DNA of 64,000 nt from Cloacibacterium sp. TD35 (GTDB taxonomy: Bacteria; Bacteroidota; Bacteroidia; Flavobacteriales; Weeksellaceae): NCBI RefSeq assembly GCF_028864635.1, contig NZ_CP104850.1, forward strand, positions 310,001 to 374,000, in the 5' to 3' direction. Within the stretch, counting starts at the first letter, position 1. Each line of letters starts with the position of its first letter. A program made the translations under genes and the position numbers. Under the pieces are notes generated by a model. It was not told where the DNA came from, made no database searches, and worked only from the letters and a program-made list of their open reading frames with translations. This document shows positions 23,534 through 59,030 of the stretch, one piece after another.

Positions 23534-23564
23534 CAAAAGATTTGTTCTTTCATATAATCGAAAT

Positions 23565-23671
23565 GTTATCAAGAAAGGTGGAGAGATTAGACTCTGTGAA
23601 ACCTTGGCAACCTATCGCGTTTCTGAAACGAGAAAAGGTGCTACATTCTACTCATTTTTGGGATAGATAAC
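23565..23671 (+). ncRNA. SAM-I (S-box) riboswitch aptamer
   Basis: The sequence follows the SAM-I consensus: P1 gttatc (23565-23570) pairs with gataac (23666-23671). The core AAGAAAGGTGGAGAGATTAG, the block GTGAAACCTTGGCAACC and the conserved AAAAGGTGCTAC complete it. It lies directly upstream of the methionine synthase genes and should lower their expression when S-adenosylmethionine is plentiful. Confidence 0.93.
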
Positions 23672-23682
23672 ACATAAAAACA

Positions 23683-40177: not shown

Positions 40178-40381
40178 TTAATCCGTGATTATTTCTAATA
40201 CTTTTTCTTTTTCTAGACCAGTGTATTGGCAGAATTCTTCGATGGTAATAAATTGATGTGGAGGTCTGTTTAAAGAGGCTTTAATTTTGGAGAGAAGTGT
40301 GCGTGAATAGGTTTCACTTTTGCCTGTAATTTTCATTACGTCTTTTGGGTAGATGCACAGCCTAAAAAATCTTTTTTTCAT
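40178..40381 (-). CDS. Small HTH-like protein
   Basis: 67 residues: IYPKDVMKITGKSETYSRTL looks like the recognition region of a small helix-turn-helix protein, and HQFITIEEFCQYTGLEKEKV a second helical part. Such short proteins are common in Bacteroidota beside DUF6943-type genes. The function is unknown. Confidence 0.6.
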   Translation of the reverse strand: MKKRFFRLCIYPKDVMKITGKSETYSRTLLSKIKASLNRPPHQFITIEEFCQYTGLEKEKVLEIITD

Positions 40382-40656: not shown

Positions 40657-41415
40657 ATGGCAAGACAAAAAAGTATTATCAAGTTAGATGGTACCATTGG
40701 TGGTATCACCTTTTACAAATCTAAAGACGGCTACCTCGCAAGAGAGAAAGGCGGTGTATCGGCGGAAAGAATTAAAAATGACCCTACCTTCCAGAGAACC
40801 CGAGAAAATGGTTCAGAATTCGGGAGAGCGGGAAATTCTGGGAAGGTTCTCAGAAATGCAATTCGTCCGCTTTTGTTAAGAGCTTCTGATTCCAGAATGG
40901 TAAGCAGATTGACCAAAGAAATGGTAAAGGTTATCCAAATGGACCAAACTAACCCTAGAGGAGCTCGTAACGTGATTGATGGCGAAGCTATCCTTTTAGA
41001 TGGTTTTGACTTCAATATCAATGGGAAGTTGGGGAACACGCTTTTCGCACCGAAAACGGTGGATATCACCAGAACCAGTGGTTTATGCCAAGTGAACATT
41101 CCAGCTTTTACGCCAACGGTGATGATTGCTGCTCCTGGGGGAACTACTCATTTCAAAATTGTAACAGCTGCAGCTGCAGTGGATTTTGAAAATGGTGTTT
41201 TTGAAACTCAGATGAATGAGTCTCCAGTTCAAGCGTGGAATGAAACGGCAACGGACGAGTTCATTTTGGATAATGAATTAACTCCGAATAGCCCTCACCC
41301 CATCTTCTTGTTTTTGGGAGTAGAATTCTTCCAAGAAGTGAATGGAGAAAAATACCCATTGAAAAATGGAGCTTTCAACGCATTGTCGATTGTGAAAGTT
41401 GATACACCAGTGTAA
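40657..41415 (+). CDS. Conserved Bacteroidota protein (MARQKSIIKL family)
   Basis: 252 residues, no signal peptide. It opens with MARQKSIIKLDGTIGGITFY followed by KSKDGYLAREKGGV, a start shared by a widespread but unnamed Bacteroidota family, continues with a basic helical part (about 40-100) and ends in a beta-rich domain. It is followed eight bases later by the DUF5675 gene. Its basic N-terminus and clustering with DUF5675 suggest a phage- or tailocin-derived module; the function is unknown. Confidence 0.7.
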   Translation: MARQKSIIKLDGTIGGITFYKSKDGYLAREKGGVSAERIKNDPTFQRTRENGSEFGRAGNSGKVLRNAIRPLLLRASDSRMVSRLTKEMVKVIQMDQTNPRGARNVIDGEAILLDGFDFNINGKLGNTLFAPKTVDITRTSGLCQVNIPAFTPTVMIAAPGGTTHFKIVTAAAAVDFENGVFETQMNESPVQAWNETATDEFILDNELTPNSPHPIFLFLGVEFFQEVNGEKYPLKNGAFNALSIVKVDTPV

Positions 41416-41422
41416 AATTTAC

Positions 41423-41827
41423 ATGGAAATCGTATTGGAAAGGATGTATTTTCCCGAAGGAACGAACGGCGTTTTAAGCCTAAACAGCAAAGAAATTTGT
41501 AAAACAATAGAATTGCCTTGGCGAAATAATAAAGCTCGAGTTTCGTGTATTCCAGAGGGAAAATACAAAATCCGAAAGCGTTATAGTGCAAAGTTTAAGT
41601 GGCACTTGGAGTTGATCAATGTAAAAAATAGAAAATACATTCTTTTACATCCAGCAAATAACGCTTTGAAGGAGTTGAATGGTTGTATTGCTCCGGTAAG
41701 TCAAATTACAGGAGAAGGTAGAGGAAATGAATCGAGAAAGGCTTTTGAGAAGCTCAAAAATTTGGTTTTCCCTTATCTAGAGAATGGTTTTGTAGTTGAA
41801 CTCATTGTTACCAAAAAAATAAAATAG
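41423..41827 (+). CDS. DUF5675 family protein
   Basis: About 134 residues resembling DUF5675: LPWRNNKARVSCIPEGKYKI, RYSAKFKWHLELINVKNRKY, LLHPANNALKELNGCIAPVS. The PEGxY, H-PAN and GCIAP motifs recall cysteine L,D-transpeptidase-like or cell-wall enzymes, so a peptidoglycan-related role is possible. The ATG at 41423 is preferred over a TTG eight codons up that would overlap the previous gene. The next gene starts one base after its stop. Confidence 0.75.
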   Translation: MEIVLERMYFPEGTNGVLSLNSKEICKTIELPWRNNKARVSCIPEGKYKIRKRYSAKFKWHLELINVKNRKYILLHPANNALKELNGCIAPVSQITGEGRGNESRKAFEKLKNLVFPYLENGFVVELIVTKKIK

Positions 41828-41828
41828 T

Positions 41829-42041
41829 ATGAAAAAATTAGTGCAAAGAATTCAGGAACCAACGCCAAAGTTTTTCCGCAAGCTTAGAAACATTGGTTTA
41901 GCCTTAACAGCTGTAAGTGGTGTTATTGCGACCGCTCCTGTTTCGCTTCCAGCTTTGGTGGTGAGTGTAGCAGGATATTTGGCAGTAGCTGGAGGCATTG
42001 CTTCGGCGGTAAGTCAAGCTGCAGTATATCGTGATGATTAG
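41829..42041 (+). CDS. Small membrane protein, possibly holin-like
   Basis: 70 residues: a basic N-terminus (KKLVQRIQEPTPKFFRKLRN) and two hydrophobic segments around LPALVVSVAGYLAVAGGIAS. It is co-transcribed with the DUF5675 gene. The holin idea rests on size, topology and position beside a possible wall enzyme. Confidence 0.6.
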   Translation: MKKLVQRIQEPTPKFFRKLRNIGLALTAVSGVIATAPVSLPALVVSVAGYLAVAGGIASAVSQAAVYRDD

Positions 42042-42082: not shown

Positions 42083-42274
42083 ATGAATTACGTGGATAAC
42101 TCGACAAAATTTAGCACTGCATTTGGGACGGTTTTAAGTATATTTGTTAACCTACAAGCCGAAGATATTCTGAAGACCATCATTCTTGGATTTTTGGGTG
42201 GTGTATCGAGTTTTGTAGCAACACTTTTGGTTAAGAGATTACTCCAAATGATGAAAAAAAAACCTAATCCTTAG
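42083..42274 (+). CDS. Small membrane protein, possibly holin-like
   Basis: 63 residues with one or two hydrophobic segments (IILGFLGGVSSFVATLLVKR) and a basic tail LLQMMKKKPNP. It lies 41 bases after the previous small membrane gene, ahead of a terminator. Confidence 0.55.
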   Translation: MNYVDNSTKFSTAFGTVLSIFVNLQAEDILKTIILGFLGGVSSFVATLLVKRLLQMMKKKPNP

Positions 42275-42401: not shown

Positions 42402-42827
42402 TTACATCGATAAATAGTAACGTCTAACTAAACTATCACGAAGTTCTTTTACTGCTTTTGCCTGCTGTTCAATTTTCTTTTCTAGTTCCCATGTAGATTT
42501 GATTTTAAGTGTCATTTCTGGGTTTTGGGAGGATTTTTCAAGAGCTGGAATAATAAAATTGCGCATCAGTGTTTTTAGTTCAGAAATACGAAGCATTTCA
42601 ATAACACTTCCGCACAAGTAAGGATGGAAAAAGCCATGTTTCCAGAGGGCGTAAAATGTCCAGTAAACATTTTCCATTTCTTCTAAGCTGCTGCAGTATA
42701 AAATAAAGCAGTTCGGACAAGGTTCTTGGAGCGGTTTTCCAGCATTTCTGCCACGGTTAAGAATAAAAATTGCGGTTTTTGGCGTAGCCTGTTGTACATC
42801 GTATGTACGTACTTTGAAATTTTGCAT
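42402..42827 (-). CDS. DUF6943-like protein
   Basis: About 141 residues: MQNFKVRTYDVQQATPKTAI then FILNRGRNAGKPLQEPCPNC, resembling the DUF6943 family of Bacteroidota. A CPNC pair and FFHPYLCGS follow, and the C-terminal third is helical (LEKKIEQQAKAVKELRDSL). The ATG at 42827 is chosen. Upstream codons are encoded by a poly-A/poly-T palindrome and would add a meaningless phenylalanine run. Confidence 0.65.
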   Translation of the reverse strand: MQNFKVRTYDVQQATPKTAIFILNRGRNAGKPLQEPCPNCFILYCSSLEEMENVYWTFYALWKHGFFHPYLCGSVIEMLRISELKTLMRNFIIPALEKSSQNPEMTLKIKSTWELEKKIEQQAKAVKELRDSLVRRYYLSM

Positions 42828-42873
42828 AACTCGGGATTTAAAAGTTATGCTTCGCAGGAAAATTTCTAAAAGA

Positions 42874-43064
42874 AAAAAAAGAAAAAAAAAGAAAGTGTTC
42901 AATTCTACAGGAGGGAAAATGCGATGCAATATTTTTTTGAAAAAAGTATGGGCGTTTTTTGCTTTTCACGCACATAGTTTTTTCAAAAAACCCTTTATGG
43001 GCTAGATATTGTCAGCGCATTTTTCCCGGACGTATACCTTTACTTTCTTTTTTTTTATTTTTTT
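42874..43064. repeat. About 190-bp nested imperfect palindrome
   Basis: Outer arms: an A-rich run (42874-42897) against a T-rich run (43041-43064), about 22 of 24 complementary. Inner arms: GCGATGCAATAT (42921-42932) against ATATTGTCAGCGC (43006-43018), and TTTTTTTGAAAAAAGTATG (from 42932) against CATAGTTTTTTCAAAAAA (to 42990). It could be an RNA hairpin or a single-strand DNA structure. Confidence 0.65.
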
Positions 43065-43155
43065 GCCGAGGGACGGCATCCTATTTTTTGACGAAAACGC
43101 TGAAAAACTGTGCACGTTCTTATGATAACGTTACCAATGGGAAGAAATGGCAAAG

Positions 43156-43202
43156 ACAGTGGTGTGCCCTTTGGCTTAGTTGAGGGAAAAGCACACGACT
43201 GT
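43156..43202. repeat. Hairpin module 1 (ACAGTGG ... ACTGTGCGCGG)
   Basis: ACAGTGGTGTGC (43156-43167) pairs with GCACACGACTGT (43191-43202) with a single mismatch. It is preceded by AAAG and followed by GCGCGGT, the same flanks as the larger hairpin at 43423-43580. Confidence 0.6.
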
Positions 43203-43422
43203 GCGCGGTTCATTAGTCAGCGCATGTGAGGCAGGAATGAAACGGACCTATTTCCGTGAAAGGAATGCCGAACATGGGCTGCAGGAACTTGGGAAGCGGT
43301 GGGAATTGGGAATGGTGCTGTAAAAACGGGGTAAACACTTCGTGCAGAAAATGGTGGGGTTCGACAAGCTCACCCACCGAAAATCTTTATTTGGATAACT
43401 GCCTGAAAAAGCGGAGGGAAAG

Positions 43423-43580
43423 ACAGTGGTATTATAGCTGAAAAAAATTGCTTTTTGTTGGCGTTATCAGATGGCGCAGAGCATAGACCAAATAAAAGAC
43501 TTTGACAACTATTATGCTTTGTGCCGTCTGATAATATAGCGGAGGGAAAAAGTGATTTTTTTCAGCTCTAATACTACTGT
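43423..43580. repeat. Hairpin module 2, about 55 paired bases with G-U pairs
   Basis: ACAGTGGTATTA (43423-43434) pairs with 43569-43580. AGCTGAAAAAAATTGCTTTTT pairs with its near complement ending at 43566, in two steps. TATCAGATGGCGCAGAGC (from 43465) pairs with its partner ending near 43534. Almost all deviations from perfect complementarity are changes that keep pairing as G-U in an RNA of the plus strand. It has the same AAAG/GCGCGGT flanks as module 1. Confidence 0.6.
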
Positions 43581-43857
43581 GCGCGGTACTGGAAGCTGAC
43601 CAATGACAAAAAAATCTTTTTCTTTTTATAAAGATTTTTTTGGCAGTGGTTTGCTGGAGGTACTGGAAAAAGAGAAAACGAGTACACCATTTTCTAAACT
43701 CCTATAAAAGGGTGGCGGGGATTTGAAGGTGTTCATTGTGGGACTGCTCTACTAAATTATAACCAAGCGAGCGGTTGGAAGGTGTAGCGCATAAAGGCTT
43801 TGACTGTTGCTAGGAAAGCATTTAACATAATGCCACATTATAGGGACTATGTAGGGA

Positions 43858-44065
43858 TGATGGCGGAACCCTTCGGCAGGCTCAGAGCTGGCTGGGTGGA
43901 GACAGCTCTCTGTAGCTAGGCAGTGCGTATAATGTTCATTATGTTACTTGCTGCGGACAGCGGTGGTTTTGGGACTTTAGAATGTTAAAAAAACACTAAA
44001 AGTATTAGGCTTCGGAGTGAATGTTTTTATTTTATTATTGTACAAAGATTTCAATTCTGGCAACG
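43858..44065 (+). repeat. 208-bp direct repeat, copy A1
   Basis: It matches copy A2 (45522-45729) over 208 bases with six substitutions and no gaps. It starts at TGATGGCGGAACCCTTCGG and ends TTCTGGCAACG, the left end of an attC-like palindrome. With A2 it flanks the lincosamide-resistance gene as direct repeats. Confidence 0.9.
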
Positions 44066-44255
44066 TTTTGCGGCTTTGCGAAGGAGCGGATTAGAAAGAC
44101 TAAACTTTCAATTTTGAACTAACTTAAGCAAAACCATTTTTTCTATTTGCTAATTTACATTTTAAAAGCAAATAAAAAATGGTTTTGCGGATTAAATGCA
44201 CAAACCTTGAATTAACCACTTAACCCGCTCTTTTGCAAAACCGATGTTGGCGGTA
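44055..44255 (+). repeat. attC-like palindrome left of the lnu cassette
   Basis: TTCTGGCAAC-GTTTTGCGGCTTTGCGAAGG ... CCGCTCTTTTGCAAAACCGAT-GTTGGCGGTA (written in parts). The outer arms are imperfectly complementary, with unpaired bases. A variable inner hairpin (GCAAAACCATTTTTT with AAAAAATGGTTTTGC) fills the middle. The right boundary GTTGGCGGTA (44246-44255) is repeated inverted at 45177-45186 beyond the gene. Confidence 0.65.
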
Positions 44256-44261
44256 GTTTTT

Positions 44262-45032
44262 TTATCTTATTTTGTGTAGGATTTCTTTCAGTTTGGGTTC
44301 AATATTTAGTTCATCAAATAGTTTTTCCGATAAATTTAATGAGTTCTCAAAAGCCAAAATGATGTTTTTGGGATTTAAATCTGATGTTACTTTTTTATAC
44401 GCTGAATACCAAATCGTGTCAATGTCCTTTTCGAGACTTTTAGTCGGACTTTCCCAATGTTGCGTTTTGCTTGTTCTTGCTCTTATAAGCCAAAGCAAGT
44501 ATTTCTGCACATTTGATAAACTGTGATGAGCGTGAGCAAATTCTTCTCGTTTAATCAAGTTGCTTGTTGTCAGTACAACATTCAGTAATGATTGGCTTAA
44601 CCACAAAATATTTTCATTTGTTATTCTTTCAGGCGATTTCGTTTTGATTTGATTAAGCGTTTTCCTTAAAAGTCCATCTTTGTCGGTTAGGTTCATTTGG
44701 TCAAAATCGCTAAATTCAACAATTCCGTCCCAAGATTTGATAATTTCAATTTCCTCCGTTTTTAAAAAATGGAATTCTCCTCTGACCATATTCTCGAAAA
44801 TAGCAACTTCACTTCCATATTCGTTTGTAAAATATAAAGCCAAAGGATGAATTTGATTTACCCATTTTTCTGTCGAGAAATTTTCTTTATTTTTCAAGAA
44901 GATGTAAAATTCGATGTCAGAATATTTGTCTCCTTCGTTTTTGGTAAATGAACCATACATAAAAACGGCGGAAACATTTTCGTCTTGTTGAGCTATATAT
45001 TTTGTTTTGTCAATCATTTGTAACTGTGTCAT
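44262..45032 (-). CDS. Lincosamide nucleotidyltransferase, Lnu(F)/Lnu(H)-like
   Basis: About 256 residues. The N-terminal nucleotidyltransferase domain has GSFTKNEGDKYSDIE with Gly27-Ser28 and the metal-binding pair Asp39/Glu41. The C-terminal half is helical. The overall sequence resembles the larger Lnu enzymes (LnuF, and LnuH from Riemerella) that inactivate lincomycin and clindamycin by adenylylation; the exact type cannot be named without a search. The ATG at 45032 gives the family start; a TTG 18 codons upstream is less likely. It sits in a 0.9 kb cassette bounded by a perfect 10-bp inverted repeat, antisense to the array. Confidence 0.75.
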   Translation of the reverse strand: MTQLQMIDKTKYIAQQDENVSAVFMYGSFTKNEGDKYSDIEFYIFLKNKENFSTEKWVNQIHPLALYFTNEYGSEVAIFENMVRGEFHFLKTEEIEIIKSWDGIVEFSDFDQMNLTDKDGLLRKTLNQIKTKSPERITNENILWLSQSLLNVVLTTSNLIKREEFAHAHHSLSNVQKYLLWLIRARTSKTQHWESPTKSLEKDIDTIWYSAYKKVTSDLNPKNIILAFENSLNLSEKLFDELNIEPKLKEILHKIR

Positions 45033-45122
45033 TTTTCTAATTTTTAAATGTTGATAATAGAAATTTTCACTACTTTTCGAAAGCAATGAAAAAGTTTTAC
45101 GTTGTTTATTTTGGACAGTTAC

Positions 45123-45186
45123 TTATAGCTTCATCGGATTATACTTTTTTATGTTCAACATTCTGTTTGGTAAAATTACCGCCAAC
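45123..45186 (-). promoter_or_regulatory. Leader region of the lnu cassette
   Basis: The cassette's right boundary TACCGCCAAC (45177-45186) is the inverse of GTTGGCGGTA at 44246. Between it and lnu a 12-codon frame (MLNIKKYNPMKL, 45161 down to 45123) could be a leader peptide, but in AT-rich DNA it may be chance. Confidence 0.35.
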
Positions 45187-45388
45187 ACTCAAATAGACGA
45201 AGTAAAATTGTAAAATTCTTATAATCAAGGAAATATTCGTTTGTAAATGATTGTAAGTATTTATTTTGTTCGTTATTTGAGTTTTTGTTTATTAGTTCTT
45301 AACAAATTTATACAAAATAAATTAAGTTAAAAAACTGAAAATGTATATTTTGTGTTAAATGTGGAAAATTCATAAAAAAATCTATCTC
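45187..45388 (+). repeat. AT-rich palindromic repeat, copy R1
   Basis: It begins ACTCAAATAGACGAAG and has the inverse arm TTCGTTATTTGAGT near 45269-45282 with one unpaired base. It closely matches R2 (47524-47665) over its first 140 bases and R3 (49333-49534) over its whole length. Its end copies 15 bases of the terminator found complete at 49522-49551. The gap 45033-46067 holds R1, S1, A2, an attC-like site and the ere leader. Confidence 0.8.
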
Positions 45389-45419
45389 TGTTTAAAAACC
45401 GAGCTATCGGGCAACGGTA

Positions 45420-45520
45420 GTTTTGAAACCTTGATGATGTTATAAAGAAATTAACGTTTTAGTTTGTTTTAAGGTTACGACTTTGTTTTAAGGGAACGGA
45501 TTAAAATTCCGCGCCATCGG
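45420..45520 (+). repeat. 101-bp direct repeat, copy S1
   Basis: It matches S2 (47701-47801), both 101 bases, with scattered substitutions; both end in CCGCGCCATCGG-type sequence. S1 follows R1 and S2 follows R2, so the ere cassette lies between direct copies of an R-S unit. Confidence 0.8.
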
Positions 45521-45521
45521 G

Positions 45522-45729
45522 TGATGGCGGAACCCTTCGGCAGGCTCAGGGCTGGCTGGGTGGAGACAGCTCTCTGTAGCAAGGCAGTGCGTATAATGTT
45601 CATTATGTTACTTGCTGCGGAGAGCGGTGGTTTTGGGACTTTAGAATGTTAAAAAAACACTAAAAGTTTGAGGCTTCGGAGTGAATGTTTTTATTTTATT
45701 ATTGGACAAAGATTTCAATTCTGGCAACG
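45522..45729 (+). repeat. 208-bp direct repeat, copy A2
   Basis: Second copy of A1 (43858-44065), about 97 percent identical by eye. It ends at TTCTGGCAAC where the next attC-like palindrome begins. Confidence 0.9.
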
Positions 45730-45918
45730 GGAAACGCATTGGCGAAGTGGCGGATAAATTGGACAAAAAGTTCAATTTAGCGAGAACGTAGCCGATGTGT
45801 TTCCACAGAGCTAACTTACAAATAAAAAGCGAATGTGGAACACATTCGGCGGAATAAAATGCAGAAACTTTCAATTTAGCACTTAACCTGCCATTTTGCC
45901 AATGCGATGTTATGTGAA
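45720..45918 (+). repeat. attC-like palindrome left of the ere cassette
   Basis: It opens TTCTGGCAACGGGAAACGC, continues ATTGGCGAAGTGGCGG, and closes CCTGCCATTTTGCCAATGCGAT then GTTATGTGAA (parts given separately). The variable inner hairpin pairs GCCGATGTGTTTCCACA with TGTGGAACACATTCGGC. GTTATGTGAA (45909-45918) recurs inverted as TTCACATAAC at 47354-47363 beyond the ere gene. Confidence 0.65.
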
Positions 45919-45929
45919 GGAATTTTTAG

Positions 45930-45937
45930 TATCTTTG
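45930..45937 (+). promoter_or_regulatory. -7 promoter box of the ere gene
   Basis: TATCTTTG, an exact TAnnTTTG match 12 bases inside the cassette, so the gene brings its own promoter. No good -33 element is seen. Confidence 0.6.
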
Positions 45938-45958
45938 TATTCAAATAATTCACATTTT

Positions 45959-46052
45959 ATGTATTTCAGCAAGCCTTGGTAATTAAAAATTAAAGTAAAT
46001 TATTAAATCGTCTTTTTGAGACGGTTGCTATTTGGTACGTTAATTTTTAATT
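45959..46052 (+). promoter_or_regulatory. Candidate leader-peptide attenuator of the ere gene
   Basis: A seven-codon frame, MYFSKPW with stop (45959-45982), is followed at once by a perfect 13-bp stem (45981-45993, aattaaaaattaa, with 46040-46052) that encloses a small hairpin cgtct/agacg (46009-46013 with 46019-46023). The 3' arm ends 15 bases before the ere ATG. This layout resembles translational attenuators of macrolide-resistance genes, where a stalled ribosome opens the stem. Confidence 0.5.
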
Positions 46053-46067
46053 TAAAATAAGGTAATA

Positions 46068-47294
46068 ATGAAAAATATAAAACCCTTAACTTTTCCGTTT
46101 AATTCGGAAAATAATACATCCATAAAACAAAGTCTTTTTCGATTTCGAGAATATTTTGATTCTTCTACAATTGTTGGTTTAGGCGAAAACTCACATTTCA
46201 TAAAAGAGTTTTTTACATTCAGGCATCAAGTTATTGAGTTTTTAGTAACTGAATGTGATTTTGACACCTTGGCATTTGAGTTTGGTTTTTCTGAAGGATT
46301 AGAAGTTGATAAGTGGATAAAATCACAAATTCCATTCGACGATTTGGATAAGTTACTGTCACACTTTTATTATCCAAATGAGTTTAAAGATACTTTGCTA
46401 TGGCTTCGTCGGTATAATCAAGACAATAATAATCAAATTACCTTTTTAGGTGTGGATATTCCTAAAAATGGAGGTTCTTATTTTCCAAACTTTCGTATTG
46501 TATCTGATTATTTGCAAAGACTTTCAATCGTTTCTTCTGATGTCTTACAGAAGATTTTAAATCTTGCTGAGAAATTTGATTTCTATTCGACTTCTCAGCT
46601 TGCGTTAAATTTATCGCTTTTTGATGAAGCTGAACATAATGAATTAAAAGCATTGCTATTAAAAGTTTACATTCGTTTGATTACTCTTCAACCAAAATTA
46701 GAAAGTTTAGAATTTCAATCGATAGTTCATCAAGTTAAAGGCTTGATTTATATGAATTATAATGCTGATGCTATGGAAAGTTTCATTACTGAAAGGGGAA
46801 TTGAAGGAGATATGGGAGCAAAAGACCAGTATATGGCAGAAAGCATTGATTGGTTTTTGAAAAATTCACTTGGTAAAAAGATTATTTTGGTTGCCCACAA
46901 TGCTCACATTCAAAAAACTCCGGTAGATTTTGATGGATTTATTAGTTGTTATCCAATGGGGCAAAGACTTTCGATGACTTTTGGAGAAAAATATAAAGCA
47001 TTTGCAATAACTAATCTACGTGGAGAAACTGCGGCATTGTATCCTGATAATGATTATCAATTTGGCTTTAGGGTTGATAAATTTCCACTTGATTTTCCAG
47101 AGTCGGATTCTGTTGAATTTATTATGCAAGAATTTGGAGGAAAAGAATGCTGTTTACTAATGAACAGAAGTACAGAATTAAAAAATTGTAATAAGATTCG
47201 ATTTGATTCGATGTGCCTAAAAACTGAAATAGAAGAAGCTTTTGACGGAATTTTTCTAATAGAAAAATCAACTGTTTCAGAAGTAGTGGATTGA
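46068..47294 (+). CDS. Macrolide (erythromycin) esterase, Ere(D)-like
   Basis: 408 residues of the erythromycin esterase family, which inactivates 14-membered macrolides by opening the lactone ring. The catalytic region GLGENSHFIKEF contains Glu40 and His43, the counterparts of the EreB Glu/His pair; AFEFGFSEG, FLGVDIPKN and LVAHNAHIQKTP (second conserved His region) follow. It resembles Ere(D), known from Riemerella. It lies alone in a cassette with its own promoter, leader and terminator, in the direction of the array. The exact allele needs a database comparison. Confidence 0.82.
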   Translation: MKNIKPLTFPFNSENNTSIKQSLFRFREYFDSSTIVGLGENSHFIKEFFTFRHQVIEFLVTECDFDTLAFEFGFSEGLEVDKWIKSQIPFDDLDKLLSHFYYPNEFKDTLLWLRRYNQDNNNQITFLGVDIPKNGGSYFPNFRIVSDYLQRLSIVSSDVLQKILNLAEKFDFYSTSQLALNLSLFDEAEHNELKALLLKVYIRLITLQPKLESLEFQSIVHQVKGLIYMNYNADAMESFITERGIEGDMGAKDQYMAESIDWFLKNSLGKKIILVAHNAHIQKTPVDFDGFISCYPMGQRLSMTFGEKYKAFAITNLRGETAALYPDNDYQFGFRVDKFPLDFPESDSVEFIMQEFGGKECCLLMNRSTELKNCNKIRFDSMCLKTEIEEAFDGIFLIEKSTVSEVVD

Positions 47295-47316
47295 GAATTT
47301 ATAAATTTAATTTCGA

Positions 47317-47347
47317 AACGGCACTTTCTTTTTGGAGGTGCCGTTTT
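47317..47347 (+). terminator. Terminator of the ere gene
   Basis: A 9-bp stem, AAACGGCAC (47317-47325) with GTGCCGTTT (47339-47347), then TTATTC. It lies inside the cassette, before the attC-like site. Confidence 0.75.
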
Positions 47348-47353
47348 ATTCTT

Positions 47354-47523
47354 TCACATAACGGTTCGGCGGATTTGCGAAGTCCCAAGAAGGAAGTTTG
47401 CTTCCGTTCTTGGGATTTAGCAAATTCACAGATGTGCGAAGTTCGCGTAGCGACGAGCAACATCTGCGGATGTAATCCGCCGAACCGATGTGGCAAAAGG
47501 AGCGGAGCGGATTTTGCCACATC
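47354..47523 (+). repeat. attC-like palindrome right of ere, with a gene-less mini-cassette
   Basis: TTCACATAACGGTTCGGCGG ... AATCCGCCGAACCGAT makes the outer arms. Two inner hairpins are CCCAAGAAGGAAG/CTTCCGTTCTTGGG-like and ACATCTGCGGATGT. It is followed by GATGTGGCAAAA (47487-47498) and its exact inverse TTTTGCCACATC (47512-47523) only 13 bases apart, the boundary pair of a cassette with no gene. Confidence 0.6.
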
Positions 47524-47665
47524 ACTCAAATAGACGAAGTACAATTGTAAAATTCTTATAATCAAGGAAATATTCGTTTATAAATGATTGTAAGTATTTA
47601 TTTTGTTCGTTTTTTGAGTTTTTGTTTATTAGTTCTTAACAAATTTATACAAAATAAATTAAATT
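47524..47665 (+). repeat. AT-rich palindromic repeat, copy R2
   Basis: A truncated copy of R1/R3 that begins ACTCAAATAGACGAAGTA directly at the end of the mini-cassette. The gap 47295-47928 holds the ere terminator, the attC-like site, R2 and S2, and no gene. Confidence 0.8.
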
Positions 47666-47700
47666 TTAGGAAGTCACGAATTAAAAATCCGCGCCATCGG

Positions 47701-47801
47701 GTTTTGGAACCTTGACGATGTTATTAAGAACTGAACGTTTTAGTGTGTTATAAGGGCACGACTTTGTTTTAAGGTCAAGGATTAAAAATCCGCACCATCG
47801 G
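47701..47801 (+). repeat. 101-bp direct repeat, copy S2
   Basis: Second copy of S1 (45420-45520). Confidence 0.8.
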
Positions 47802-56659: not shown

Positions 56660-57925
56660 TTATTTTGCTTTGACTTTGATGATTTGGTGGAGGTCTGTGG
56701 TGTAGCGTGGAGAGAGGTTCTTTTGGTTCATCTTCCAGGTTCTTTGGACGTCCATGGAGCCGAGCTTGATTTTGTCTGCTCCTAGTCTTTTGTTCATCAC
56801 GTCTATTACCTGCATGATTGGGCGGTGTTTGGCGTGAAGGTCTTCATCAAATAATGAGGTCATTCTCTCGGTTTCGGGAACGAATTCTGTGACCATCACC
56901 CCTGCTTTTTTGTATTGGAAAAATGGCAGGTAGATTTTTTCCAGTCCTTGCAGTGCTGCTTTGGAAATTTCAATAGCGGAATTGGAAGGATTGGTTAAGG
57001 TGATGGTGATGGAGTTGCTGTATTGTTTTAAGTCCAGTTTGAAACGGTCGGTCATAATGAAAACGGTCACGTATCTGCAGCATGATTTTTGAGCTCTTAG
57101 TTTCTCGGAGCATTTATAGGCGAAGGTAGAAACTCTTTCTTTCAAGGTTTCTAAATCGTCTGTTCTTTTGTCGAATGTTCTGGTGGTGGCGATTCCTTTT
57201 TTGGGTTTTGGAATGGTTAGGTCGTATTGAGGTATTCCACGTAATTCGCGGTGCATTCTTAGTCCGAGGATTCCCATTTCTTTTTGGACGAAAGCTTCTG
57301 GCAGTTGGGTAAAGTCCCAAGCGGTTTTGATGCCTCTTGCCGAAAATCTTTCGTAGTATCTTCTCCCGATGCCCCAAATATCTTCTAGGGGGAACCATTT
57401 TAAAGCTTTTTCAATTTTGGAAGGTGTATCAATTATATAAACGCCATTGGTTTTCTCGGGAAATTTTTTTGCAATTTTATTGGCCACTTTCGCCAAAGTT
57501 TTTGATGGTGCAATACCGATACTGCAAGGAACATCAAGACCTCGTAGAACGGTTTCCCTTAATTCTTCGCAGTGTTTCTGTAAATCGTAATGCTCGTAAC
57601 CGTGGAAATCTAAAAAAGATTCATCAATGCTGTAAACTTCAATGTCTTTGCAGAATCTACGGCAAATATTGGTAATTCGGTTGCTGATATCACCATATAA
57701 AATAAAATTGGCGGAAAAAACGGTAAGCCCTGCTTCTTTTTCTAGGTGTTGGATTTGGAAGTATGGTTGCCCCATCTTAATTCCCAAGGCTTTGGCTTCG
57801 TTAGAGCGTGCAATGGCGCACCCATCGTTGTTGGAGAGTACCACAACGGGTTTGTTTCGCAAGTCTGGGCGGAAAACCCTTTCGCAACTTGCATAGAAGT
57901 TATTGCCATCGATTAAGCCGTACAT
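56660..57925 (-). CDS. umuC: Y-family DNA polymerase, UmuC-like
   Basis: About 421 residues: palm residues in MYGLIDGNNFYASCERVF and YSIDESFLDF, finger-domain motif SNNDGCAIARSNEAKALGI, a helix-hairpin-helix (WGIGRRYYERFSARGI) and the little-finger domain with the UmuC C-terminal region. It is an error-prone translesion polymerase. Its ATG overlaps the stop of the UmuD-like gene (TAATG), so the pair is translationally coupled. The ATG at 57925 is preferred over one 14 codons upstream inside the UmuD-like gene. Confidence 0.92.
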   Translation of the reverse strand: MYGLIDGNNFYASCERVFRPDLRNKPVVVLSNNDGCAIARSNEAKALGIKMGQPYFQIQHLEKEAGLTVFSANFILYGDISNRITNICRRFCKDIEVYSIDESFLDFHGYEHYDLQKHCEELRETVLRGLDVPCSIGIAPSKTLAKVANKIAKKFPEKTNGVYIIDTPSKIEKALKWFPLEDIWGIGRRYYERFSARGIKTAWDFTQLPEAFVQKEMGILGLRMHRELRGIPQYDLTIPKPKKGIATTRTFDKRTDDLETLKERVSTFAYKCSEKLRAQKSCCRYVTVFIMTDRFKLDLKQYSNSITITLTNPSNSAIEISKAALQGLEKIYLPFFQYKKAGVMVTEFVPETERMTSLFDEDLHAKHRPIMQVIDVMNKRLGADKIKLGSMDVQRTWKMNQKNLSPRYTTDLHQIIKVKAK

Positions 57926-58392
57926 TATTTTCTTAGTTTGTGTAGGTTCCAAGTTGCCACGCCCCAAAGCTCGAAGTCTGTGTCTTCGTTGATGTCTATA
58001 TCTGAGTAATTGGGATTCTCGGATTTTAGTTTTATTTTCTCTAATCTTAGGGAGTTTTCTTTGTATTTTGGTTTGTACCTTTTTACATAAAATTCTCCTA
58101 GGTAAAAGACAACTACTATATCATTTTCTCTCGGGAATAGTCCTTTTTGGACGATGAGGATGTCGCCATCAAATACTCCAATCCCATTCAGTGAGTCACC
58201 TGTTACTCTTGCAAAGAAAGTGGTTTCTTTGTCTTTGATTAAGAGCTTTAATAGGTCTATGGTGTCTTCGGGGAAGTCTAATGCAGGACTTTCAAAACTG
58301 CCATAACCACCAGCTTTTACCTTGGCTGGAAGGACTGGAATGATTAGTTTTTCTTCATTCTCGAGTTTGAAAAGTTCTATCTTGGATTTCAT
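57925..58392 (-). CDS. umuD: UmuD-like S24 self-cleaving protein
   Basis: 155 residues. A LexA/UmuD-type peptidase domain with Ser67 in VTGDSLNGIG and Lys104 in FYVKRYKPK, 37 residues apart as in E. coli UmuD. The cleavage site is probably Ala27-Gly28 in VKAGGYGSF. After RecA-stimulated self-cleavage it activates the UmuC-like polymerase. An SOS box cannot be assigned with confidence upstream. Confidence 0.9.
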   Translation of the reverse strand: MKSKIELFKLENEEKLIIPVLPAKVKAGGYGSFESPALDFPEDTIDLLKLLIKDKETTFFARVTGDSLNGIGVFDGDILIVQKGLFPRENDIVVVFYLGEFYVKRYKPKYKENSLRLEKIKLKSENPNYSDIDINEDTDFELWGVATWNLHKLRK

Positions 58393-59030
58393 TTTTCAAA
58401 GGTATAAAATAAAGCAAAATGAATGAGGGGGTGTGGAAAAGTTTTGGTTGATGGGTGCTGGATGCTGGGTGTGAAACAATTTTCTTTTCCCCTCCCTAAA
58501 GGGAGGAAAATTGTTTGGGGAAAATTTTTGCCCCGACCCTGACTTCGACGACGCTCAGTCACCGTGGGTGGAAAATTGGAAAGAAAAATTTTTGCCCCGA
58601 CCCTAAAGGGTGAAATTTTTCTTAATTGTAAAGGGAGGAAAATTGTTTATTGTTACCTCAGCTTTGAAATCACAACGGAGGGTGCGTTGTGAATTTGGTG
58701 ATGTGTTTTTAAGATTGATTTTGCACTATGCGATATAAATTAGCGAAATGAAGCAAACAAATCCATCGACTCCGCTCAGGATGTTGGGCTCTAGGAAGAC
58801 TTGGACTAGAGACGGTTTTTGTGAAGCTGAGTGAGATAATGGTTACGGAAAGTTGAGTCACCGAATTGAGGAAAATTGTTATATTCGTTTTTAAGAACTT
58901 TTCTTTTATGGAAGGAATTTTGGAATTATTTTAGAGAGTATTGGGTAAATAAGCCTTTGGAGGTAAAATCATACTTGAATGAGTGGATGATTTGATTGCT
59001 AAGGGTGAGGTTTTGATGGGATTTGACTAT
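58393..59030. other. Intergenic stretch with REP-like repeats
   Basis: About 640 bases without a gene. It contains CCTCCCTAAAGGGAGG with flanking GAAAATTG-type arms (58490-58512), a repeat AAAATTTTTGCCCCGACCCT at 58521-58540 and again near 58586-58605, and a REP-like stretch at 58544-58564. Confidence 0.6.

Follow-up and report, generated by a model that had tools for sequence, protein, structure and literature searches.

A non-coding tract of ~1.1 kb (42850-43960) in a window of 64,000 nucleotides from Cloacibacterium sp. TD35 (contig NZ_CP104850.1, positions 310,001 to 374,000 of the forward strand; "the window" is this whole stretch) lies between a divergent DUF6943 gene and a group of cargo genes, and consists of a nested palindrome, module A, followed by an array of hairpins, modules B to D, with both parts folding on the + strand. 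Selection on a folded single strand, namely the + strand, is well supported across the tract because compensatory changes are abundant in its homologues and stem mismatches are strand-biased, and it is the shape of the tract, rather than its sequence, that is preserved across many Bacteroidota. We consider it probable that module A belongs, as a diverged copy, to a family of folded single-stranded DNA (ssDNA) promoters in Bacteroidota that work like Frpo, found in the leading regions of F-type plasmids, with our confidence in this reading somewhat lower for the window copy itself. Modules B to D are a separate hairpin array, limited to Flavobacteriales elements that carry DUF6943, and probably represent a new structured RNA.

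A first-pass annotation, made from the letters of the window, had described positions 42828 to 43850 as a tract of long hairpins that may encode structured RNAs. The hairpins are there, but the tract runs past the end it gave, to ~43960. Two hairpins sharing the frame AAAGACAGTGGT...ACTGTGCGCGGT were located at about the places named, a short one of ~55 nt at 43152-43209 and a long one of ~166 nt at 43419-43587, and AAGACAGTGGT occurs twice in the window compared to an expected 0.03 times. The outer arms of the long framed hairpin are 34 nt in length and 88% complementary, with G.T accounting for three of the four outer-arm mismatches. The third hairpin of that annotation, a nested palindrome, is also present (42874-43064), with a DNA fold z-score of -8.4 and none of 200 shuffled sequences folding equally well, and the 896 nt located 3' of it gave z-scores of -7.4 for RNA folding and -10.7 for DNA folding (20 shuffles each).

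The annotation had further claimed that deviations from pairing are mostly retained as G-U pairs, which proved to be true in general. A strand-neutral hairpin scan using only Watson-Crick seeds on 28 homologous tracts found 90 G.T and 4 A.C stem mismatches when read on the + strand, compared to 32 and 22 in flanking DNA; a split scan assigned 77 G.T and 1 A.C to modules B to D and 18 G.T and 3 A.C to module A. From base composition alone, a G.T share of only 61% would be expected, so the excess remains after correction, with p ~4e-15 for the whole tract and ~1e-15 for modules B to D, values that are too small as probabilities because the loci are related. The framed hairpins keep their ends across relatives while their stems differ, ranging from 54 to 187 nt. 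For module A, 27 sequences drawn from two families plus more distant loci were aligned: 94.5% of the cells were paired, 32 of 47 pairs had changed on both sides, and covariation reached 0.459, versus 0.148 after shuffling and at most 0.128 in slid controls. This alignment was fitted to a model and thus favours the structure, but the slid controls and direct reading of the stems speak against model fitting as the whole cause of the covariation. The + strand also had the more stable ssDNA fold of the two strands in 23/23 and 17/18 module A copies.

Module A (42850-43064, + strand; model core 42891-43047) folds into a nested palindrome with a three-way junction, and its conserved 3' part has the form (ACC..GGC hairpin)-TTG-N20..24-TAnnTTTGC, placing the promoter CTTG-N20..24-TAnnTTTG at one fixed position in the 3' arm. 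The main flavobacterial sigma factor, sigma-A, has TAnnTTTG as its -7 box (PMC9723704). In duplex DNA, this promoter faces away from the SSB, ArdA or DUF6943 gene found to the left of different module A copies. In the folded + strand, the boxes on the 3' arm instead aim at the base of the stem and the template is the 5' arm followed by the DNA to the left, therefore the transcript would be the sense strand of SSB, ArdA or DUF6943. In the wider module A family, one strand folds in a way that reconstitutes the boxes, with the -33 box paired in most copies. Among folded single strands of the SSB and ArdA types, 14 of 16 copies have the -7 box paired to the far arm, versus 11 of the 120 further TAnnTTTG sites in these loci. 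The window copy reconstitutes its boxes in part: the -33 box TTG (43009-43011, + strand) pairs with CAA, pairs that are invariant in 26-27 of the 27 sequences, while the -7 box TACCTTTA (43035-43042, + strand) carries one mismatch to TAnnTTTG and sits in an internal loop. A minus-strand duplex promoter for DUF6943 was considered and rejected, as no minus-strand TAnnTTTG was seen within 250 bp upstream of any of 20 DUF6943 genes, versus 65 of 217 control genes.

Searches with covariance models showed that module A extends well beyond the family of the window. A model built from the window's family matched Flavobacterium-like copies at E values of 1e-13 to 1e-8, and a search of 345 genomes of the class without the use of any protein recovered seven further loci in other families, five of which have DUF6943 directly left of module A and divergent from it. 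With a second model, 23 of 395 Bacteroidota genomes yielded 39 sites in total, many of them without DUF6943, and 16 of the 23 sites that lack DUF6943 have a minus-strand gene within 400 nt to the left of module A. Pfam searches of ten such left genes identified SSB (three genes), ArdA (two genes), PcfK, RadC/JAB and AbiEii, with no match for two, and further SSB and PcfK genes left of module A were recognised from sequence. Annotated records place PcfJ-PcfK, or JAB and ArdA alongside traM/traN/traO, just left of module A; sequence reading at sites without DUF6943 found PRTRC, DUF932 and traM/traN/traO genes nearby, and several relatives have tra genes on their flanks. Genes for SSB and anti-restriction proteins classically occupy the leading regions of conjugative plasmids (PMC9849209, PMC11541004). 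The relatives with SSB, ArdA, RadC/JAB or PcfK thus have module A upstream of leading-region genes that would be read from the folded strand, as is the case for Frpo. The window also contains a weak match to the module A model at 58475-58654 (E 0.0044), just upstream of a minus-strand UmuD/UmuC-like gene pair (56660-58392), beyond which lies a type I restriction R-like gene. The umuDC genes have been reported from leading regions.

The gene left of module A in the window is DUF6943 (42402-42827, - strand; PF22105, E 2.9e-45), which is also the constant partner gene in the window's relatives that the first-pass annotation had suggested looking for. It is a candidate anti-restriction gene that would be read from module A. 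An AlphaFold model with a mean pLDDT of 89 was compared to known folds using VIA-align, and the structures ranked 1 to 14 were all restriction/modification specificity folds (Z 7.8-4.6, with the next unrelated structure at 3.2). The best of these alignments match 128-133 of 141 residues to HsdS chains of type I restriction systems; Z scores below 8 make this likeness suggestive rather than proof, and the Foldseek E-values were weak. The model suggests that DUF6943 resembles half of an HsdS subunit, with one target-recognition domain and one long coiled coil, and so is possibly an anti-restriction protein. It differs from HsdS in its half size, in having no adjoining HsdM or HsdR partner, and in a similarity that is undetectable by sequence, and a sequence search against solved structures returned nothing significant. 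DUF6943 had no match in phage or plasmid records. Five IMG/VR contigs encode it, two of them with a terminase-like neighbour that PHROGs supported in one case (L078), and module A is absent from all five. In tailed-phage contigs (L077, L078 and L079), DUF6943 adjoins a terminase-like gene and has no module A, and it may be a packaging or anti-restriction gene of the phages.

Frpo/ssi is likewise a non-coding hairpin upstream of SSB and anti-restriction genes in the leading regions of F-type plasmids (PMC9849209, PMC11541004). In both Frpo and module A, the fold of one strand puts the promoter boxes into a stem, and the genes that would be expressed use the folded strand as template. Module A differs in having the Bacteroidota sigma-A boxes TTG/TAnnTTTG instead of TTGACA/TATAAT and in its three-way junction, and its DUF6943-type copies, including that of the window, also differ in that the -7 box lies mostly in a loop. 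The family was found by a structure model, and we claim no sequence relation to Frpo. By analogy, module A would fold while an incoming + strand is single-stranded, the stem making the -33 box double-stranded and setting the -7 box beside the 5' arm. With the 5' arm and the DNA beyond it, left of module A, serving as template, RNA polymerase would then transcribe the minus-strand gene, so that DUF6943 would be expressed in the window, and SSB, ArdA, RadC/JAB or PcfK in conjugative relatives.

Single-stranded promoters with TTGACA/TATAAT-type boxes account for the defence of plasmids during their first minutes in a new cell (PMC9849209, PMC11541004). A search of a collection of open papers listed none that joins Frpo with Bacteroides, an absence that is not proof that none has been described. 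If true, a family in Bacteroidota that uses sigma-A boxes of its own would show the single-strand promoter trick to be general, and the position of module A would flag early genes of unassigned role, as with DUF6943. This would bear on how resistance genes spread among Bacteroidota of the gut and the environment, and the structure model of module A makes the family directly searchable.

Several points weigh against a single-strand promoter. The window copy is diverged, with its -7 box unpaired, and may be weak or dead; it may also be a weaker, pre-opened version or have shifted in function. The final base of the -7 box is not kept as G in most Weeksellaceae-like copies, where it covaries with the base opposite. 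The element in the window showed no origin of transfer (oriT), relaxase or conjugation gene that would back its entry as a single strand. About one third of the sites that lack DUF6943 have no left gene in reach (e.g. L129, L130, L141, L143 and L147), and a duplex promoter was present upstream of 2 of 14 left genes other than DUF6943 versus 30% of control genes, a difference that is not significant. The second module A model was trained on + strand folds, which favours + strand finds, and the loci are related, which limits their independence. Finally, the boxes in duplex DNA form an ordinary rightward promoter, which by itself could explain their presence in the DUF6943 loci.

This last point leads to an alternative in which module A is an ordinary duplex promoter combined with a regulatory palindrome, such as a binding site for DUF6943, that drives an RNA from modules B to D, with the single-strand fold being incidental. 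The -33 and -7 boxes do face modules B to D in duplex DNA, and the predicted fold of DUF6943 is that of DNA-recognition domains. However, the boxes at SSB, ArdA and PcfK loci have no hairpin array in front of them and mostly lack a consistent gene there, a regulatory palindrome would not need stabilisation on one strand, yet the + strand is favoured at 40 of 41 sites, and the three-way junction with its side hairpin is conserved. On this balance, we regard the alternative as unlikely.

The hairpin array comprises module B (43065-43419), module C (43419-43587) and module D (43590-43960), all on the + strand. Module B follows module A and contains the first, short framed hairpin (43152-43209) as well as a second hairpin and linker (43210-43419) that ends near the next frame, judging from its fold and aligned relatives. 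Module C is the long framed hairpin, with stems of 54-187 nt in relatives, and module D has a terminator-like hairpin (43594-43655) and a terminal hairpin (43817-43956), after which the cargo starts. The idea that such hairpins always accompany module A on its right was rejected, as the array is absent from this position in conjugative relatives and distant DUF6943 loci, and because of this absence we treat modules B to D as a separate part. DNA to the right of module A contains 51 bp of stem in 9.8 kb in the conjugative relatives, versus 643 bp in 7 kb in the Flavobacteriales DUF6943 elements. Genes are inserted between module A and the array in loci L028, L029, L068, L069 and L035, showing that the two are separable.

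Like large structured RNAs, modules B to D have a covarying structure on one strand, seen as framed hairpins with different stems at many loci. The strong G.T bias and the module A promoter that faces the array in duplex DNA indicate that they are probably a new structured RNA, which the module A boxes would transcribe rightwards from duplex DNA, and Rfam searches gave no match at the gathering score and nothing credible at loose thresholds. The structured-RNA proposal of the first-pass annotation thus holds as far as selection on the folded + strand is concerned, and RNA appears to be the best reading of the framed hairpins, but it was too simple for the nested palindrome, which is a separate, promoter-bearing module. 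G.T is the mildest mismatch in DNA too, so modules B to D may instead function as ssDNA. If the array is transcribed, module A could form part of a strand-state switch that we propose only tentatively: the folded single strand would drive leftward expression of a half-HsdS-like anti-restriction protein that protects the incoming DNA, and conversion to duplex DNA would let these boxes drive a long, kilobase-sized structured RNA of modules B to D rightwards. If true, the first part of this switch would be a promoter family of conjugative elements across Bacteroidota.

A second doubtful alternative is that modules A to D together form a single large non-coding RNA gene, comparable to GOLLD, ROOL and OLE, that belongs to a phage-derived element and has DUF6943 as its protein partner. 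These RNAs are likewise ~1 kb intricate covarying structures near phage-like genes (PMC12286853); the tract differs in having two to three repeated framed hairpins of variable length and no Rfam match. The strong + strand bias for G.U-type mismatches in modules B to D and the covarying hairpins of very different lengths in a fixed frame would both be expected of such a gene, which could be new given the Rfam result, and DUF6943 adjoins a terminase in a tailed phage contig. Against a single RNA, module A is found without modules B to D, in other orders and in conjugative elements, and several loci have genes inserted between A and B. With the conserved promoter at the 3' end of module A, A would also lie outside of the transcript that it starts.

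Least likely is that the hairpins act as ssDNA in recombination, with cargo cassettes joined at the terminal hairpin of module D in the way of attC sites: cargo blocks ~97% identical between genera start inside this hairpin, half of it recurs around the gene that follows in the window, and most loci have cargo genes reading towards D, but no recombinase belongs to the element, a tyrosine integrase adjoins two loci only, and homologous recombination in a conserved RNA gene would yield the same junctions. Integron attC sites are similar in being imperfect palindromes that edge variable cargo genes; module D is unlike them in that there is no integron integrase, the cargo genes point towards the palindrome and core sites are not established.

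Homologues of the tract occur in several genomes of the window's genus and many of its family, within a conserved gene order that consists of a small helix-turn-helix (HTH) or SNase-like gene, a 252-267-amino acid protein, DUF5675, one or two small membrane proteins, reversed DUF6943, module A and the hairpin array. The outer flanks vary between loci and four copies of DUF6943 occur in a single Flavobacterium-like genome, indicating a mobile or at least repeatedly transferred unit, and the best explanation is an integrated element that has spread horizontally in Flavobacteriales. A tyrosine integrase was rejected as part of the element since it adjoins two loci only, as was a conserved tRNA insertion site, seen at one locus only; no tRNA or tmRNA genes were found in the tract. 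The first-pass annotation had seen no support for a retron, which agrees with our noticing no reverse-transcriptase-like gene among neighbouring open reading frames of the loci, where no dedicated profile search was made.

The left end of the element in the window is marked by an HTH/excisionase-like gene of 67 amino acids (40178-40381, - strand; 16 loci) with a weak match to an excisionase model (E 0.007), which is swapped for the SNase-like gene in some relatives. The + strand operon begins with the 252-amino acid protein (40657-41415; 27 loci), which has a C-terminal beta-sandwich in its AlphaFold model, only weak and mixed fold matches in the PDB with none clear, and no match in phage records. 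It is followed by the DUF5675 protein (41423-41827; PF18925, E 1.1e-32), a small membrane protein (41829-42041; 22 loci) and a small holin-like membrane protein (42083-42274; 9 loci), also on the + strand.

Cargo to the right of module D at various loci includes metal-efflux genes, DISARM DrmB and ThsA-like genes, and one 8-kb block that starts inside the module D terminal hairpin is ~97% identical between two genera. In the window, the cargo is a LinB-like nucleotidyltransferase (44262-45020) and an erythromycin esterase (46068-47294) in a cassette-like region (44020-47800). The spacers between these two genes are repeated and shared with other genomes (L029, L043), and positions 45519-45735 are a near-exact repeat of the right half of the module D hairpin together with the flank beside it. 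A short conserved motif, GAAATTAGCGAAATGAAGCAAACAAA...ATACTTGGACTAG, lies 3' of the cargo in some Flavobacterium-like elements (in element orientation, L058 9263-9347, L067 13727-13811 and L069 13256-13347) and may mark the right element end; a related stretch occurs in the window near 58740 (58740-58830). Elsewhere in the window, Rfam identified a SAM riboswitch at 23563-23673 (RF00162, 69 bits).
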